A stretch of 37,773 nt of DNA. Origin: an uncultured Bacilli bacterium (lineage in GTDB: Bacteria > Bacillota_I > Bacilli_A > RF39 > UBA660). The stretch spans positions 1-37,773 of the forward strand of contig CALVRD010000007.1 in the NCBI GenBank assembly GCA_944358435.1. Direction: 5' to 3'. A program made the position numbers and the translations under genes. Positions 32,234 through 37,773 of this stretch are shown in pieces (the first letter of the stretch is position 1; the number at the start of each line of letters is the position of its first letter). The notes beneath the pieces were generated by a model. It ran no database searches, was not told the DNA's origin, and saw only the letters and a list, made by a program, of their open reading frames with translations.

Positions 32234-32446
32234 TCATTCAATAATCTCCAAATTATTAATTAATAAATCACTATAACTAAATGATTTTATCACTTTATTT
32301 TCCAACTCAATTGTAAAAATAGCTGGATAAACACCAACAATCTTTCCACTAAATTCTTCATTTTGATTTCTTACACCATTAAATCTAAATACATGACTAA
32401 TACCCATATTCTGAGCAACCAAACTTTTCACTTTTTCAAGCATCAT
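32234..32446 (-). CDS. veg: Veg family protein
   Basis: Veg is a short, abundant protein linked to biofilm gene control in B. subtilis. The 70-aa product (86 in B. subtilis) has FRFNGVRNQNEEFSGKIVGVYPAIFTIEL followed by KSFSYSDLLINNLEI, the beta-barrel core of the family. The start overlaps the yabG stop by 4 nt (ATGA), so translation is probably coupled to yabG. Because yabG is broken, veg expression would depend on what promoter now reads through the fragment. Confidence 0.93.
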   Translation of the reverse strand: MMLEKVKSLVAQNMGISHVFRFNGVRNQNEEFSGKIVGVYPAIFTIELENKVIKSFSYSDLLINNLEIIE

Positions 32447-32973
32447 CTTGGATACCCCACATACATAGTACCATTAGTAATAATTCCTCCAATTCCATCT
32501 TTCCCATATTTTGTCTTCTCAATTAAGTGAACAACATCAATACTTTGGTTTCTGTCCGATAAAGCCAGTGAAGAAGCAATAATAGCTGGATCTAAAGCAT
32601 GAATATTAATTCTTTTAGGACTCGAAGCAAAATTAGCTCCAGCTTTAATCAATTCTTCATAATTAGACTGACATGCACCCGCAACTATAATTAATTTATC
32701 TTGACTTTTCTCATATTTACGAGCTTCCTTAACCGCATCAATAAAATTAACTGTATTTTGATAATTATTTAAATCCTTACTATCTCTTTTTTTTACATAA
32801 TAAGCATCATGCCCAGTAATAACTACAATATCAGGTTGAAACTCCCGAAGTAACTCTCCAATTCGATATGGAATATCAGCCTCAGATAAAGCAATCCCAT
32901 TAGCTTTAACATTCAAATCTTCATAAAACCGCATACATCTCTCCAAGTAGTCACTATCACCATCTGCAGACAC
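32443..32973 (-). CDS. yabG: Sporulation protease YabG, C-terminal part only
   Basis: YabG is a late-sporulation cysteine protease that trims coat proteins such as SpoIVA. Only 176 residues are present; full-length YabG has about 290. The fragment opens at ADGDSDYLERC, equivalent to the LDGDE.YL motif near the middle. His55 (ITGHDAYY) and Cys101 (GACQSNYE) are kept with the 46-residue spacing recalled for the catalytic pair His172/Cys218 of B. subtilis, so about 117 N-terminal residues are missing. The GTG used as start has no ribosome binding site, and an in-frame TAA lies two codons upstream (32977-32979). The fragment itself shows no decay. It looks like the 3' half of a gene split by an inserted element. 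Confidence 0.9.
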   Translation of the reverse strand: MSADGDSDYLERCMRFYEDLNVKANGIALSEADIPYRIGELLREFQPDIVVITGHDAYYVKKRDSKDLNNYQNTVNFIDAVKEARKYEKSQDKLIIVAGACQSNYEELIKAGANFASSPKRINIHALDPAIIASSLALSDRNQSIDVVHLIEKTKYGKDGIGGIITNGTMYVGYPR

Positions 32974-32989
32974 TCGTTAAGTAACTGCA
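32965..32989. other. Candidate attachment site at the yabG break
   Basis: Plus-strand arms TGCAGACACT (32965-32974) and AGTAACTGCA (32980-32989) match in 8 of 10 positions as an inverted repeat around a 5-nt centre, CGTTA. The centre contains the in-frame stop that separates the yabG fragment from upstream sequence. Imperfect palindromes around a dinucleotide core are typical of large serine recombinase att sites. Confidence 0.55.
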
Positions 32990-33139
32990 AAAACTTTAAT
33001 TAAAGACAATAAATTCTTACCATTATAGTCTTACATTTATATATCTATATATTCTTTTCAGCAACAATAAACACATTACATTAAATATTACATCTTAATA
33101 AATTACCAAATAAATTATATTATCATCATTAAAATAATT

Positions 33140-34702
33140 TTATTTTTTATGCTCACCTAATTTAAACTTAAAAAATATTTTTATCGTATTATCCTTATAA
33201 ACAACAATCTTATCAATTAAATCCCTTATAATATTATTTAAAAAATCATTACTATTAATAAACGTATAATATTTTTTTGCCAATCTTTCTTTATCATTTT
33301 TCTCATTTTTTAAATTAATTATTTCCCTTATCTTTTTCACCGATTCTTCTTTTAAAAGAACTTCCTTATTTTTTTCTTCTATAAATTCTTCTACGTTTAT
33401 TTTTCCCATTATCTTTTGTAAATATAGATTTCTAATATTTATATTATGAAATTCTATATTATCTTTTAAATTAGAAATTTTTAAATTATATCGTTCTACT
33501 TTTACTATTTTTTTTAAAGTCTTCATAAGAATATCATCTTCATCAACATAATTACCAATTATATCTTTTAAAGTAAAATCAACTATCATTTTCAGCTTAT
33601 CCTCACTAATACTTCTATTGAGGCATTTCTTCCTATCAACTATTTTTTTACACACTAAATAGTATTTTATTTTTTTATTGTATTTATTTACCCTCCAAAT
33701 AGTCATATTCTTTTCACATTCACCACATACCACAAGTTGATTAAGCAACCCACAATAATTATTTTTTTTTCTTTTAAGTTGTCGTAATCTCCCATTAGCA
33801 AGTTCAAATAATTCAGCTGTTATAATAACTGGATGACAATTATCAATAGTTTCTCTCTTATCTATAGGAATTACATTCCGTCTCTTTTGATGATAATCTT
33901 TTTTTTCAGATTTTCTTACAACAATTCTTCCAGTATAAATCTTATTTTTTAGTATTCTATATATTATTTTATCTGACCAATCATAATAATACTTTCTATT
34001 TTTATTAAGTTTCATTCCCATATAAACCGCAGGAGATAATACTTTATCCTTATTAAGTTCTTCCGCAACTTCCGCTCTAGATTTGCCATTTACAATTTCA
34101 GTAAATATTCTTTTAACAATACTTGCAGCATAATTATCAATTTCTAAAGTTCTCTTATCATCAAGCTTCTTTACTTTATATCCATAAGGAGCCATACATC
34201 CAATAAATTGTCCCTCTTTTGTTTTTGATAAAGCCACCTGTTTTCTCTTTATAGAGCACTCTTTTACATATCTTTCATTTATAAGTGAACTAAACATTAA
34301 CATCATTTGTTGTTCATTACTCTCAAAATTATAACTATCAAATTGATCATTTACCGCAATATATCTAACCTTATACTTAAAAAAATAATCATTAATATAA
34401 TATAACGTTTCTAGAAAATTTCTGCCAAGTCTAGACATATCCTTCGTTATTACAACTCCAATAAAGCCCTTTTTAATATCATCTTTTAATTGTTCAAATC
34501 CAGGTCTTTCAAAATTAATTCCTGAATAGCCATCATCAATATACTCTTTACTTACTAATAAGCCAATACTTCTAGCATAAGATTTTATACATTCTAACTG
34601 ATTATATATACTAGAAGAAAATTCATTATTCCTATTTATATCCTCTTGTGACAACCTAAGGTAAGCAACAGTAAGCCTATAATTTTCCATCACTTGCCCC
34701 AT
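33140..34702 (-). CDS. Large serine recombinase (distal gene of pair)
   Basis: This is a site-specific recombinase of the large serine integrase family, 520 aa. The catalytic domain has YLRLSQED with nucleophile Ser18, DDGYSGINFERPGF (57-70) and ITKDMSRLGR (85-94). The recombinase domain spans about 165-310. A zinc ribbon has Cys326, Cys329, Cys351 and Cys360. A coiled coil (about 400-490) follows, the element that controls integration versus excision. It overlaps the upstream recombinase by 26 nt, implying coupled translation. A second ATG four codons in (MENYRL) is a possible start. The gene ends 151 nt from the candidate att site. It is full length with all key residues. Confidence 0.92.
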   Translation of the reverse strand: MGQVMENYRLTVAYLRLSQEDINRNNEFSSSIYNQLECIKSYARSIGLLVSKEYIDDGYSGINFERPGFEQLKDDIKKGFIGVVITKDMSRLGRNFLETLYYINDYFFKYKVRYIAVNDQFDSYNFESNEQQMMLMFSSLINERYVKECSIKRKQVALSKTKEGQFIGCMAPYGYKVKKLDDKRTLEIDNYAASIVKRIFTEIVNGKSRAEVAEELNKDKVLSPAVYMGMKLNKNRKYYYDWSDKIIYRILKNKIYTGRIVVRKSEKKDYHQKRRNVIPIDKRETIDNCHPVIITAELFELANGRLRQLKRKKNNYCGLLNQLVVCGECEKNMTIWRVNKYNKKIKYYLVCKKIVDRKKCLNRSISEDKLKMIVDFTLKDIIGNYVDEDDILMKTLKKIVKVERYNLKISNLKDNIEFHNINIRNLYLQKIMGKINVEEFIEEKNKEVLLKEESVKKIREIINLKNEKNDKERLAKKYYTFINSNDFLNNIIRDLIDKIVVYKDNTIKIFFKFKLGEHKK

Positions 34703-36266
34703 TTATATTAAACTTAAAATACACTTTAATGGTTTTATCTTTATAGATTTCTATCTTATTAACTAAAATTTTAATAATTTGTCTATCAAAATCTTTTCCA
34801 GTTAAAAATTTATTAATATATTTCATCTTTTTTTCTCTATCATTAACTAAGTTCTTTATTTTACTTAAAATCAGCCTTAAATTAGATATTTTAGCCTCAT
34901 AATCTATCTTATCTTCTTCCAATCTTCTTTTTATCGCAACAAATTCATCTACCGATAAAACATTACTTGACCTATCTAAATATAAATTACTTATTGCTTT
35001 ATCTATAATAGCAATTTTAGATTTACATTTTTTTAAAGATGATTCATATTCCTTTAATACATTTAAATTACATAATACAGTTTCATATATTTTTTTCAAT
35101 TTATCAATTTCAACATTTTTAAATAAAATATCTCTAAGTTCTTTTAGCACTAATTCATTTAAATCGCTTTCTCTATAATAATGCATACTACAAATATTAT
35201 TTCTATATCTTGCATACGTTCTACATAAATATATAGGGGTTATAATAGAATTTCTACTTTTTACCCTCCGTACTGTCATTGTCGCACCACAATCAGCACA
35301 AACTACTAAGCCTTTTAATAAGTAATCATATTGTCTAAATCTAATATCTTTTTTTTCTTTTGAACTATTAACCTTATAAAAAATATCATTGGATACAATT
35401 TGTGGCAAAGCATTCTTTTTTACAACCCATTTGCTTTTTGGAAGTAATTCTTTTTTCTTTGCTTTAAGACTTAACCTCCTATATTTACCCTGAATTAAAG
35501 TCCCAATATAAGCTTCATTTTCTAAAATATGTTTTACTGAAGATGCTTTCCATAAATTAGTAGTTATAGTATACCTATTAAGTTTTTTTCCACTATAGAC
35601 ATCTGGTGGAAGCACACCATCTCTTGTTAAAGTCCTAGCTATTAAGCAATTTGTCATACCATTATTTTTCATTTCAAATATTTTTTTTACAATAGATGCC
35701 GCATAATCGTCAACAACTAACATTTTATTACTTTCAACAGATCTCTTATAACCATAAGGAACAGTTCCAGATACAAACTCCCCTCTATTCATAAGTTCAT
35801 GTCTAACACTTGTTATTTTCTTTGATATATCTTTTAAATACATATCATTTATAACGGCTTTAAAAGGAAGAATATCTTCAACACCATTTGGATTCAAAGT
35901 ATCATAGTTTTCAAGTATCGAAATATATCTAATATTGTGTTCCGGAAAATACTTAAAAACATAATTACCAGTCTCAATAAATTCTCTACCAAGTCTAGAC
36001 ATATCCTTTGTTATTACACAGTCAATAATACCGTGCTCAATATCATTTATAAGTCTATTAAATGCCGGTCTATCAAAATTTCCTCCAGAATATCCGTCAT
36101 CAACATAGTAATCATAAATTTCAATATTATTATTTGTAGCGAACTCTTTTATAAAAGATCTTTGATTTCTAATACTAACACTTTCAACATCTTTATTGCC
36201 ATCATCAATTGAAAGTCTTAAATAAGCCCCTGCCCTATATATTTTATTTGTTAAACAGTCCTTCAT
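34677..36266 (-). CDS. Large serine recombinase (proximal gene of pair)
   Basis: This is the second serine integrase, 529 aa from the ATG at 36266, which has AAAGG 6 nt upstream. The catalytic domain has AYLRLSIDD with Ser19, DDGYSGGNFDRPAF (56-69) and ITKDMSRLGREF (85-96). The recombinase domain follows (about 165-315), then a zinc ribbon with Cys323, Cys326, Cys348 and Cys359, and a coiled coil around 370-480. It is a clear paralogue of the downstream recombinase but diverged. Such tandem pairs occur in SCC elements (ccrA-ccrB), where both are needed. It is the likely first long gene of the operon, 70 nt after a 41-aa ORF. Confidence 0.92.
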   Translation of the reverse strand: MKDCLTNKIYRAGAYLRLSIDDGNKDVESVSIRNQRSFIKEFATNNNIEIYDYYVDDGYSGGNFDRPAFNRLINDIEHGIIDCVITKDMSRLGREFIETGNYVFKYFPEHNIRYISILENYDTLNPNGVEDILPFKAVINDMYLKDISKKITSVRHELMNRGEFVSGTVPYGYKRSVESNKMLVVDDYAASIVKKIFEMKNNGMTNCLIARTLTRDGVLPPDVYSGKKLNRYTITTNLWKASSVKHILENEAYIGTLIQGKYRRLSLKAKKKELLPKSKWVVKKNALPQIVSNDIFYKVNSSKEKKDIRFRQYDYLLKGLVVCADCGATMTVRRVKSRNSIITPIYLCRTYARYRNNICSMHYYRESDLNELVLKELRDILFKNVEIDKLKKIYETVLCNLNVLKEYESSLKKCKSKIAIIDKAISNLYLDRSSNVLSVDEFVAIKRRLEEDKIDYEAKISNLRLILSKIKNLVNDREKKMKYINKFLTGKDFDRQIIKILVNKIEIYKDKTIKVYFKFNINGASDGKL

Positions 36267-36336
36267 TATCAACCTTTCTTTTCCTACAAATTTTATACAT
36301 ATCTTTTAATAAAAGTTAAGCATTAATAATAAGTAA

Positions 36337-36462
36337 TTATAAAAAATTAGTATCATCTAAAAGTGTCTTCAAATATCTCTCAAAAGCTTCAAGTATTTTG
36401 TCACTAACTGATGGACCAGATTCATCATAAATACATATTACAAGTTCATTTTTGTCTCTCAT
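36337..36462 (-). CDS. 41-aa small protein leading the recombinase operon
   Basis: An ORF starts at the ATG at 36462, preceded by a strong GGGAGGA box 6 nt upstream, and codes for 41 residues: MRDKNELVICIYDESGPSV, then SDKILEAFERYLKTLLDD and a short tail. It predicts as a beta strand plus one amphipathic helix. No family is recognised. Its place just ahead of the recombinases, in the same direction, makes a recombination partner such as a directionality factor possible, but nothing in the sequence proves it. Confidence 0.65.
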   Translation of the reverse strand: MRDKNELVICIYDESGPSVSDKILEAFERYLKTLLDDTNFL

Positions 36463-36666
36463 AATAATCCTCCCTATTAAAAATTTATGAATAAATTGCC
36501 AATTTAATGAAGAAAAAATAACTTTTAAAATATAAAAAACTATTATAAAAAGTCACATTTCATGTAAAATAATTTGTAAAAATAACAAATAAATTTTTTT
36601 CAAACTACATAGTAACTTTGTTTTTTATTCATACATTTGATATACTAAAATAGTAGAGGTGAATGA
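36463..36666. other. Divergent intergenic region of the element
   Basis: This 204-nt AT-rich spacer lies between the leftward recombinase operon and the rightward hydrolase gene. On the minus strand a TATAAT occurs near 36540 with a poor -35. The plus-strand promoter is at 36618-36646. No clear operator dyad is seen. Confidence 0.5.
36618..36646 (+). promoter_or_regulatory. Promoter of the WXG/SleB-type gene
   Basis: TTGTTT (36618-36623), a 17-nt spacer ending in TGA, and TATACT (36641-36646), which forms an extended -10. AGAGGTGA follows as ribosome binding site. Confidence 0.65.
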
Positions 36667-37704
36667 ATGAAAACAGAAATTAATAATGTACCGGAATTAG
36701 CAGGCCTAACAGAAAAATTAATAGCTAGCTCGAATGAGCTAACTGAATCTCTCGATAATTTAAAATCAATTGTAGGAAGAGCTAAAGATTATGATGGAAT
36801 TGACGTAACAACTGCCGGTAATATATTAAAGAACAATTTAAAAGTTTTATCTAATGACATGAAAAATGCAGCAAAAAATATGAAAAGTTATTCAACTGGA
36901 ATAGAAAACCTAGATGTTGATGACTTTACTACACAAAGTGACACCTTCTCTTTATCTTTAGGAAATAAAATTGGTGGATTTATATCGGGAATTGTAACTT
37001 CCTATACAACAGGACTAGATAAAATAGGTAAAGCTATAATGGTTCCATTTACAAATAATGATGAAAATAGTAATAGTAATAATCAATCAGAAATGCAAAG
37101 TACACCAGAAGGTCAAAAAAACTCTGTTGCAATCCCTAGATCAGAATATGTAAATCCAAACCCAGAATTAAAAGAGACTGGAAACCTAAGAGATAAAATA
37201 ACTCAAAGGACAACATATACAACAAACAAAGGAACAGTTGTTATTTCTCCAGGAGATCCAAACGTTGATTTAGACTTAAGTGTATATCATAATAATCCCG
37301 CAACTGGATTTCAAGTTACTACTGGAAATCCGACTTATGAACTAAGTCAACAAGATCTTCAATTGATGTATGGTTTAGTAGCATCAGAAAGTGACAAAAC
37401 ATATGATGATGCTCTTGGTGTTGCTACAACAATTCTTAATAGATGTGAAACATCTAACTGGGTTAACGCTCATTCTCAAAACCCAATTGAACAAATAACT
37501 GCACCTGGCCAATTTGAAGTATACTCTAAAGGAACTTATAAGCAATGGCAAACTAGAGAACTTCCAGAAACAGTTGTAAAAGCTGTTAATGACGCCTTAT
37601 CCGGAGTAAGAAATCATGATTATTGCTATTTTAGATCTAATGGATCAAATAGTTATTCTGATAATATGATCACACAAACAGGTAATAGATATGGATATAA
37701 ATAG
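36667..37704 (+). CDS. WXG/LXG-like protein with SleB-type cell-wall hydrolase domain
   Basis: The 345-aa protein has no signal peptide. Residues 1-90 are alpha-helical and soluble, like the WXG100/LXG N-terminal modules of type VII secreted proteins. Residues 98-125 are Gly-rich and mildly hydrophobic. A low-complexity Asn/Ser/Pro linker follows to about 225. Residues 228-345 resemble the SleB/CwlJ hydrolase family: LMYGLVASESDKTYDDALGVATTILNR, with Glu241 at the catalytic Glu position, then PGQFEVYSKG and CYFRSN. It may cut peptidoglycan. It is transcribed divergently from the recombinases and is the only cargo gene seen. No immunity gene is visible. Confidence 0.75.
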   Translation: MKTEINNVPELAGLTEKLIASSNELTESLDNLKSIVGRAKDYDGIDVTTAGNILKNNLKVLSNDMKNAAKNMKSYSTGIENLDVDDFTTQSDTFSLSLGNKIGGFISGIVTSYTTGLDKIGKAIMVPFTNNDENSNSNNQSEMQSTPEGQKNSVAIPRSEYVNPNPELKETGNLRDKITQRTTYTTNKGTVVISPGDPNVDLDLSVYHNNPATGFQVTTGNPTYELSQQDLQLMYGLVASESDKTYDDALGVATTILNRCETSNWVNAHSQNPIEQITAPGQFEVYSKGTYKQWQTRELPETVVKAVNDALSGVRNHDYCYFRSNGSNSYSDNMITQTGNRYGYK

Positions 37705-37742
37705 TAAAAATATGTAAAACAAGTTTTTTCACATAGAATATA

Positions 37743-37773
37743 TGATATAATTAATACAAAATAAAGGAGGAAT
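37743..37773 (+). promoter_or_regulatory. Promoter and ribosome binding site of the next gene
   Basis: An extended -10, TGATATAAT (37743-37751), and AAAGGAGG near the window end indicate a further rightward gene starting just beyond the edge. Confidence 0.55.

Follow-up and report, generated by a model that had tools for sequence, protein, structure and literature searches.

What becomes of a sporulation gene that is cut in two by mobile DNA, and could such a gene still serve the cell that carries it? This question is raised by a locus in which the catalytic half of yabG, the gene of a spore-coat protease, stands beside two large serine recombinase genes. The window, that is the whole stretch of DNA analysed here (37,773 nucleotides), is the entire contig C7 of a 1.24-Mb draft genome, and a preliminary description of it had proposed that yabG is split by a recombinase-bearing element. 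In fact, the 3' half of the gene lies in the window and the 5' half on another contig of the same genome (C8), with a core shared by the two junctions; we regard it as almost certain that the agent splitting yabG is a site-specific element that can be excised.

A yabG gene in two parts

The features of the locus are collected in Table 1. The YabG ORF of the window covers positions 108-280 of the Peptidase_U57 profile and its catalytic half is intact, with His55 and Cys101 placed where the preliminary description had put them. As had also been observed there, this ORF starts abruptly, just ahead of the DGD motif, without a ribosome binding site (RBS) or a start signal of its own, and an in-frame TAA (32979-32977) lies two codons upstream of its GTG. 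The interval 32443-37773, to which the interruption had been assigned, covers only the right part of the element; since the window is an entire contig, the element leaves it on the right and continues from the first base of C8.

Table 1. Features of the split yabG locus, with coordinates in the window
Feature	Position	Strand	Remarks
veg homologue	32234..32446	-	gene usually following yabG; identified by resemblance; same order in L037 and L042
yabG 3' (catalytic) half	32443..32973	-	176-aa ORF, Peptidase_U57 E=2.5e-71; host-derived sequence from the core (32964)
10-bp core GATGGTGATA	32955..32964	-	common to the 5' junction on C8 (1437-1428); predicted crossover GA = 32964-32963
Element side of attR	32963..32985	-	outer arm GTTACTTAA (32977-32985) plus TCTGCA-GA; forms an inverted repeat together with the arm of attL on C8
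Part of the element within the window	32964..37773	.	remainder: C8:1-1437 plus a gap of unsequenced DNA
R2, large serine recombinase	33140..34702	-	immediately upstream of the yabG 3' half in every case
R1, large serine recombinase	34677..36272	-	overlap of about 26 bp with R2
SP, conserved 41-aa ORF	36337..36462	-	lies upstream of R1 and has a strong RBS; found in each of the 12 elements examined and on 3 IMG/VR contigs
Promoter-like block before SP	36463..36511	-	TTCATTAAAT-N12-TTCATAAATTTTTAA-RBS, conserved
Cargo: cell wall hydrolase	36667..37704	+	Hydrolase_2, SleB-like; 28.3 bits against a cut-off of 27

The search for an N-terminal half, whose absence the preliminary description had itself named as refuting its proposal, recovered it at C8:1393-1704(-), directly after a ksgA homologue, which is the usual yabG start position, and ending beside the same 10-bp core. 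A YabG profile search of the whole genome gave no yabG copy beyond these two halves. Downstream of the 3' half lie two genes that we take, by resemblance, to be homologues of veg and spoVG; with ksgA before the 5' half and these genes after the 3' half, the order is reconstructed as ksgA, yabG-5', element, yabG-3', veg, spoVG. When the two halves are joined at the core they form a YabG frame of 262 aa, cut after about 89 of its 262 codons. The product matches the YabG of an intact relative at 206/262 residues, and the junction is free of gaps; relatives carry the gene in its fused form.

No overlap was found between the right end of the window and the other contigs. The window ends in an RBS (37763-37773) and C8 starts inside an ORF on the same strand (L002:2-1069), so that the unsequenced stretch between them may be short and lie inside a single gene.

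Attachment sites, recombinases and cargo

In the ten genomes in which both junctions are readable, the cut falls at the same GA, in the first Asp codon of ILH[IL]DGD, with an in-frame join (10/10), and the same break is seen at four more 3' junctions (G092, G387, G464 and G504); the GA is the same in all 14 genomes. The expectation that both halves are intact and that excision would rebuild the gene in frame is borne out. The third base of the Asp codon was ruled out as the crossover point, since several species have different bases there in attL and in attR, whereas the GA is always identical and is therefore the likely crossover dinucleotide. The reconstructed attP is an imperfect inverted repeat, typically of the form TCAGCA-GA-TGCTGA and flanked by the outer arms GTTACTTAA and TTAAGTAAC, and its palindrome exceeds the shuffled expectation in 9/10 reconstructed sites. 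A circular attP was sought in the IMG/VR viral contigs, where none was found, and no excised or circular molecule was seen.

One genome (G044) offers a further view of the site. Its 5' half ends at ...CATATTGAT, the element forms one contig and the 3' half starts at GATGGTGAT; the contigs break exactly at the core and the neighbours overlap by exactly 55 bp on both sides, which is the pattern of a k=55 assembly graph with a second path that skips the element. The base before GAT in the other 3' path is not the A of nearly all elements, and this fits an empty site. These observations, read from contig ends with the alternative path itself unseen, are best explained by the coexistence of occupied and empty chromosomes; since the circular form (attP) has no branch of its own, they may reflect element-free strains rather than ongoing excision.

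The fixed module of the element, read toward the yabG 3' half, consists of SP (39-42 aa), R1 and R2. The identification of R1 and R2 as large serine recombinases adjoining the break proved correct: both are intact and each contains the Resolvase, Recombinase and Zn-ribbon domains. Their catalytic-type Ser/Arg residues are invariant in 12 elements, and the recombinases have low dN/dS values, of 0.11-0.36. SP, which gave no significant match in Pfam and PHROGs, is by its position and size a candidate directionality factor, a role that we propose tentatively.

Several further observations concern these genes. On a 32-kb IMG/VR contig, an SP-like ORF of 60 aa (L293:5995-6177) has a large serine recombinase and a relaxase-like gene as neighbours, so that proteins like SP may be more general companions of such recombinases. 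In two copies of the element from IMG/VR (L195:3786-4367 and L194:5940-6524), R2 is followed by a third recombinase, with the resolvase catalytic domain alone, and then by a small YLRFSKEPEE-type ORF. In G386 and G384 (L042:9794-10528 and L146:904-1638), an element ORF of about 70 aa (VILYLRLSQEPE...) continues in frame across attR into the yabG 3' half, a read-through that could yield a chimeric protein while the element is integrated. Moreover, the genome of the window encodes another large serine recombinase on contig C12 (L154:3450-5018), with about 35% identity to R2; an ffh-like gene and an adenine methylase lie nearby.

In 15/15 elements the block before SP includes a CATA-type -10, though the DNA beyond the block is unrelated. 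A similar -10 is found upstream of spoIVA and yabG; SASP genes carry a different one. The -10 looks sporulation-type, and the block suggests sporulation control of SP-R1-R2. Among the ten split genomes tested, spoIVA is retained in 10/10, spo0A in 9/10 and alpha/beta SASP in 8/10. The host family probably belongs to the GTDB order RF39, which a published survey predicted to be able to sporulate (PMC10868615).

The complete elements measure 8,927, 9,589 and 11,317 bp, and 8,851 bp in G044; that of the window amounts to at least 6.2 kb plus the gap. Their cargo varies from element to element: apart from the hydrolase of the window, it comprises a sigma-like protein with a dockerin protein, glycosyltransferase, kinase, radical SAM and NUDIX genes, a histidine kinase with an AMP-binding enzyme, an ABC transporter and an amidase. 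The L095 element encodes an EcoRI-type adenine methylase, a GmrSD/HNH nuclease and a MazF-type toxin (L095:2134-4528 and L095:6143-6505), and MazF-type genes also adjoin SP in G098 and G274. Phage structural families were absent from the scanned cargo, the window's own element being partly unsequenced.

Recurrence, horizontal movement and selection

Splits were called from the reading frame and the junction DNA, and all of the genomes are draft assemblies of uncultured organisms. After removal of duplicates, yabG is split in 14 genomes of one taxonomic family of uncultured gut Bacilli, belonging to at least 14 species and at least 12 genera. Three genomes whose sequence ends inside yabG (G002, G240 and G290) were left out of the count, and two with an attL-type junction, from which no 3' half was recovered (G162 and G177), are candidates only, outside the 14. 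G048 was rejected as a split case, since its yabG is intact and simply runs into the end of a contig; the presence of two PF05582 matches per genome was likewise discarded as a sign of splitting, as the profile also breaks within intact ORFs.

Close relatives of R2 (at least 45% identity, E<1e-122) occur in 10/386 genomes of the family. In nine of these ten the yabG 3' half follows R2 directly, and in the tenth (G044) it is reached via the 55-bp contig overlap. The sample of the order contributed three more with the same R2-yabG arrangement (G464, G477 and G504), a contig search also gave L037, L042, L085 and L095, and the operon also occurs on three IMG/VR contigs, of which one extends into a yabG 3' half. 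Every close R2 relative with enough flanking sequence adjoins a yabG 3' half. None of the 20 weaker recombinase matches that were checked adjoins yabG, no R2 was found outside the family in the class and phylum samples, and the best-listed R2 relatives in phage and plasmid collections are no closer than 33%.

The identity of R1 correlates with that of R2 (r=0.94), while the correlation between R2 and YabG is r=-0.14. Furthermore, the DNA of G384 and G386 is 89.9% identical over the 4.36 kb that lead up to the yabG boundary, whereas the residue identity of their YabG 3' halves is 61%. The two recombinases thus track each other but not the YabG of the host and this, together with the contrast between G384 and G386, indicates that the elements jump between species into one fixed site.

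Neither half of yabG is decaying and both are under purifying selection. No frameshift or stop was found in the 14 C halves and 10 N halves. The split 3' halves have dN/dS values of 0.056-0.227 (median 0.12) against 0.080 in intact genes, that is a slightly weaker constraint on the C half when it is split (Mann-Whitney p=0.014); the median for the 5' halves is 0.22 against 0.14 in intact genes, and the 3' half in the window gives 0.071 relative to the nearest intact homologue. The small excess could be due to relaxed constraint or to larger distances, and the low values may partly be inherited from before the insertion.

Probable rebuilding of yabG, its alternatives and known systems

The best explanation of the whole, which we regard as likely, is a yabG-specific integrative element that would be excised by SP-R1-R2, probably at a time set by sporulation. 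An element with an attachment site specific for yabG would insert at the GA in the first Asp codon of ILHIDGD. As the 3' half has no start signals, no YabG would be made during integration, and sporulating cells would obtain it only after excision, in which the recombinases would cut attL and attR at the GA, release a circular element and unite the halves of yabG in frame. Since removal of the element would rebuild yabG exactly, DNA excision probably restores the gene at spore formation. The timing would probably be set by the promoter of SP-R1-R2, as in skin and gin; a tie between excision and sporulation appears fairly likely.

The same locus could be read as a site-specific mobile element lodged in a gene dispensable for growth, excised occasionally and not developmentally, in hosts that tolerate the loss of YabG or from which selection removes the element. 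Such a reading agrees with the patchy distribution of the split state, which requires at least 11 changes on the YabG tree, 6 of them forced by well-supported branches, and with the clear horizontal movement, the presence in some elements of MazF-type toxins and restriction-modification genes, such as selfish islands typically carry, the slightly raised dN/dS and the lack of an attP branch in G044. However, it sits poorly with halves that carry neither frameshift nor stop (14 C and 10 N), with a sporulation-like promoter block that is kept before the operon despite unrelated cargo, and with the developmental excision of known elements of like layout (gin and skin); we consider it unlikely, though worth keeping in mind.

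The remaining explanations deserve far less credit. Random insertion, killing yabG and leaving its halves as pseudogene remnants, had been raised as the alternative in the preliminary description and would account for a 3' half standing alone without start codon context; it is refuted by the recurrence of site and recombinases, since an identical dinucleotide in 14 genomes, a common core, the recombinase pair every time, intact frames and low dN/dS leave it scarcely credible. That the halves act as separate proteins, as a split protease for which excision would be unneeded, is very improbable: both are conserved, and the 70-aa element ORF of G384 and G386 does run in frame through attR into the 3' half, but most elements, including that of the window, have a stop just upstream of the 3' half, with no RBS and no conserved start, and relatives carry a fused gene. 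An artefact of assembly or binning might be suspected from halves that lie on different contigs in the genome of the window; it is refuted, with negligible probability left, by L037, L042 and L150, independent assemblies in which a single contig carries the whole element with a yabG half on either side.

An element that is removed from yabG was thought in the preliminary description to be possibly new. The literature does not support this: a publication of 2023 describes yin, a prophage with one recombinase by the 5' half of yabG, in a single strain, Clostridium botulinum V73 (PMC10747680). Excision of yin rebuilds yabG and yields a circle, as shown by PCR, and its authors knew of no other insertion in yabG (PMC10747680). 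At the gene level the two are alike in the target, the serine recombinase and the short repeat at both ends. Unlike yin, the elements described here have no phage structural genes in the scanned cargo, two tandem recombinases by the 3' half, and a distribution over at least 12 genera with horizontal movement.

Their layout is closer to that of gin than to that of yin. Gin is a phage-free element of 28.6 kb in gerE of Bacillus cereus, with three recombinases, two of them in an operon; the working one, GirC, lies away from the operon, and the recombination directionality factor (RDF) is GirX (PMC5595907). Common to both are the lack of phage genes, several serine recombinases, a variable gene content and restriction-modification cargo, and the gin core, of 9 bp, also comes with an imperfect inverted repeat; by description, they differ in target (gerE vs yabG) and in size (28.6 kb vs about 6-11 kb). 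In skin, which interrupts sigK in Bacillus subtilis and Clostridioides difficile, regulated excision is proven, with a small RDF in C. difficile (PMC5025042). Here too a sporulation gene is interrupted by an element encoding large serine recombinases and we infer regulated excision, but skin is prophage-like and has one recombinase, whereas the yabG elements have two and a scanned cargo free of phage structural genes. With SCC (ccrA-ccrB; PMC5595907) they share a fixed recombinase pair, a fixed chromosomal site and swappable cargo; SCC, however, enters the 3' end of rlmH, which still works, while yabG is cut in mid-gene.

A sporulation gene in two intact pieces, a serine recombinase, a core common to both junctions and an in-frame join are thus shared with the sporulation gene-intervening elements (skin, spsM/SPbeta, vfbin, gin and yin). 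What is new is the breadth, over at least 12 genera, with a fixed site, the SP-R1-R2 module and evidence of horizontal movement. Whether these are dedicated, swappable cassettes built on a fixed, sporulation-controlled SP-R1-R2 module, with yabG as their sole home across a family of uncultured gut Bacilli, is in our view evenly balanced.

Gene-rebuilding elements have so far come from a few cultured strains of Bacillus and Clostridium, and the only yabG case from a single prophage; the hosts described here have genomes of about 1.2 Mb and are bacteria known chiefly from metagenomes. For annotation, yabG may seem truncated or absent in some of these genomes though it is present in two parts. 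Many natural sets of att sites and recombinases are also at hand, on which the requirements of a two-recombinase system can be tested. A late sporulation gene can be a recurrent docking site for mobile DNA and, if the cassette proposal is true, this family would join the cargo exchange known from SCC with the programmed gene rebuilding known from skin, while spreading between genera.
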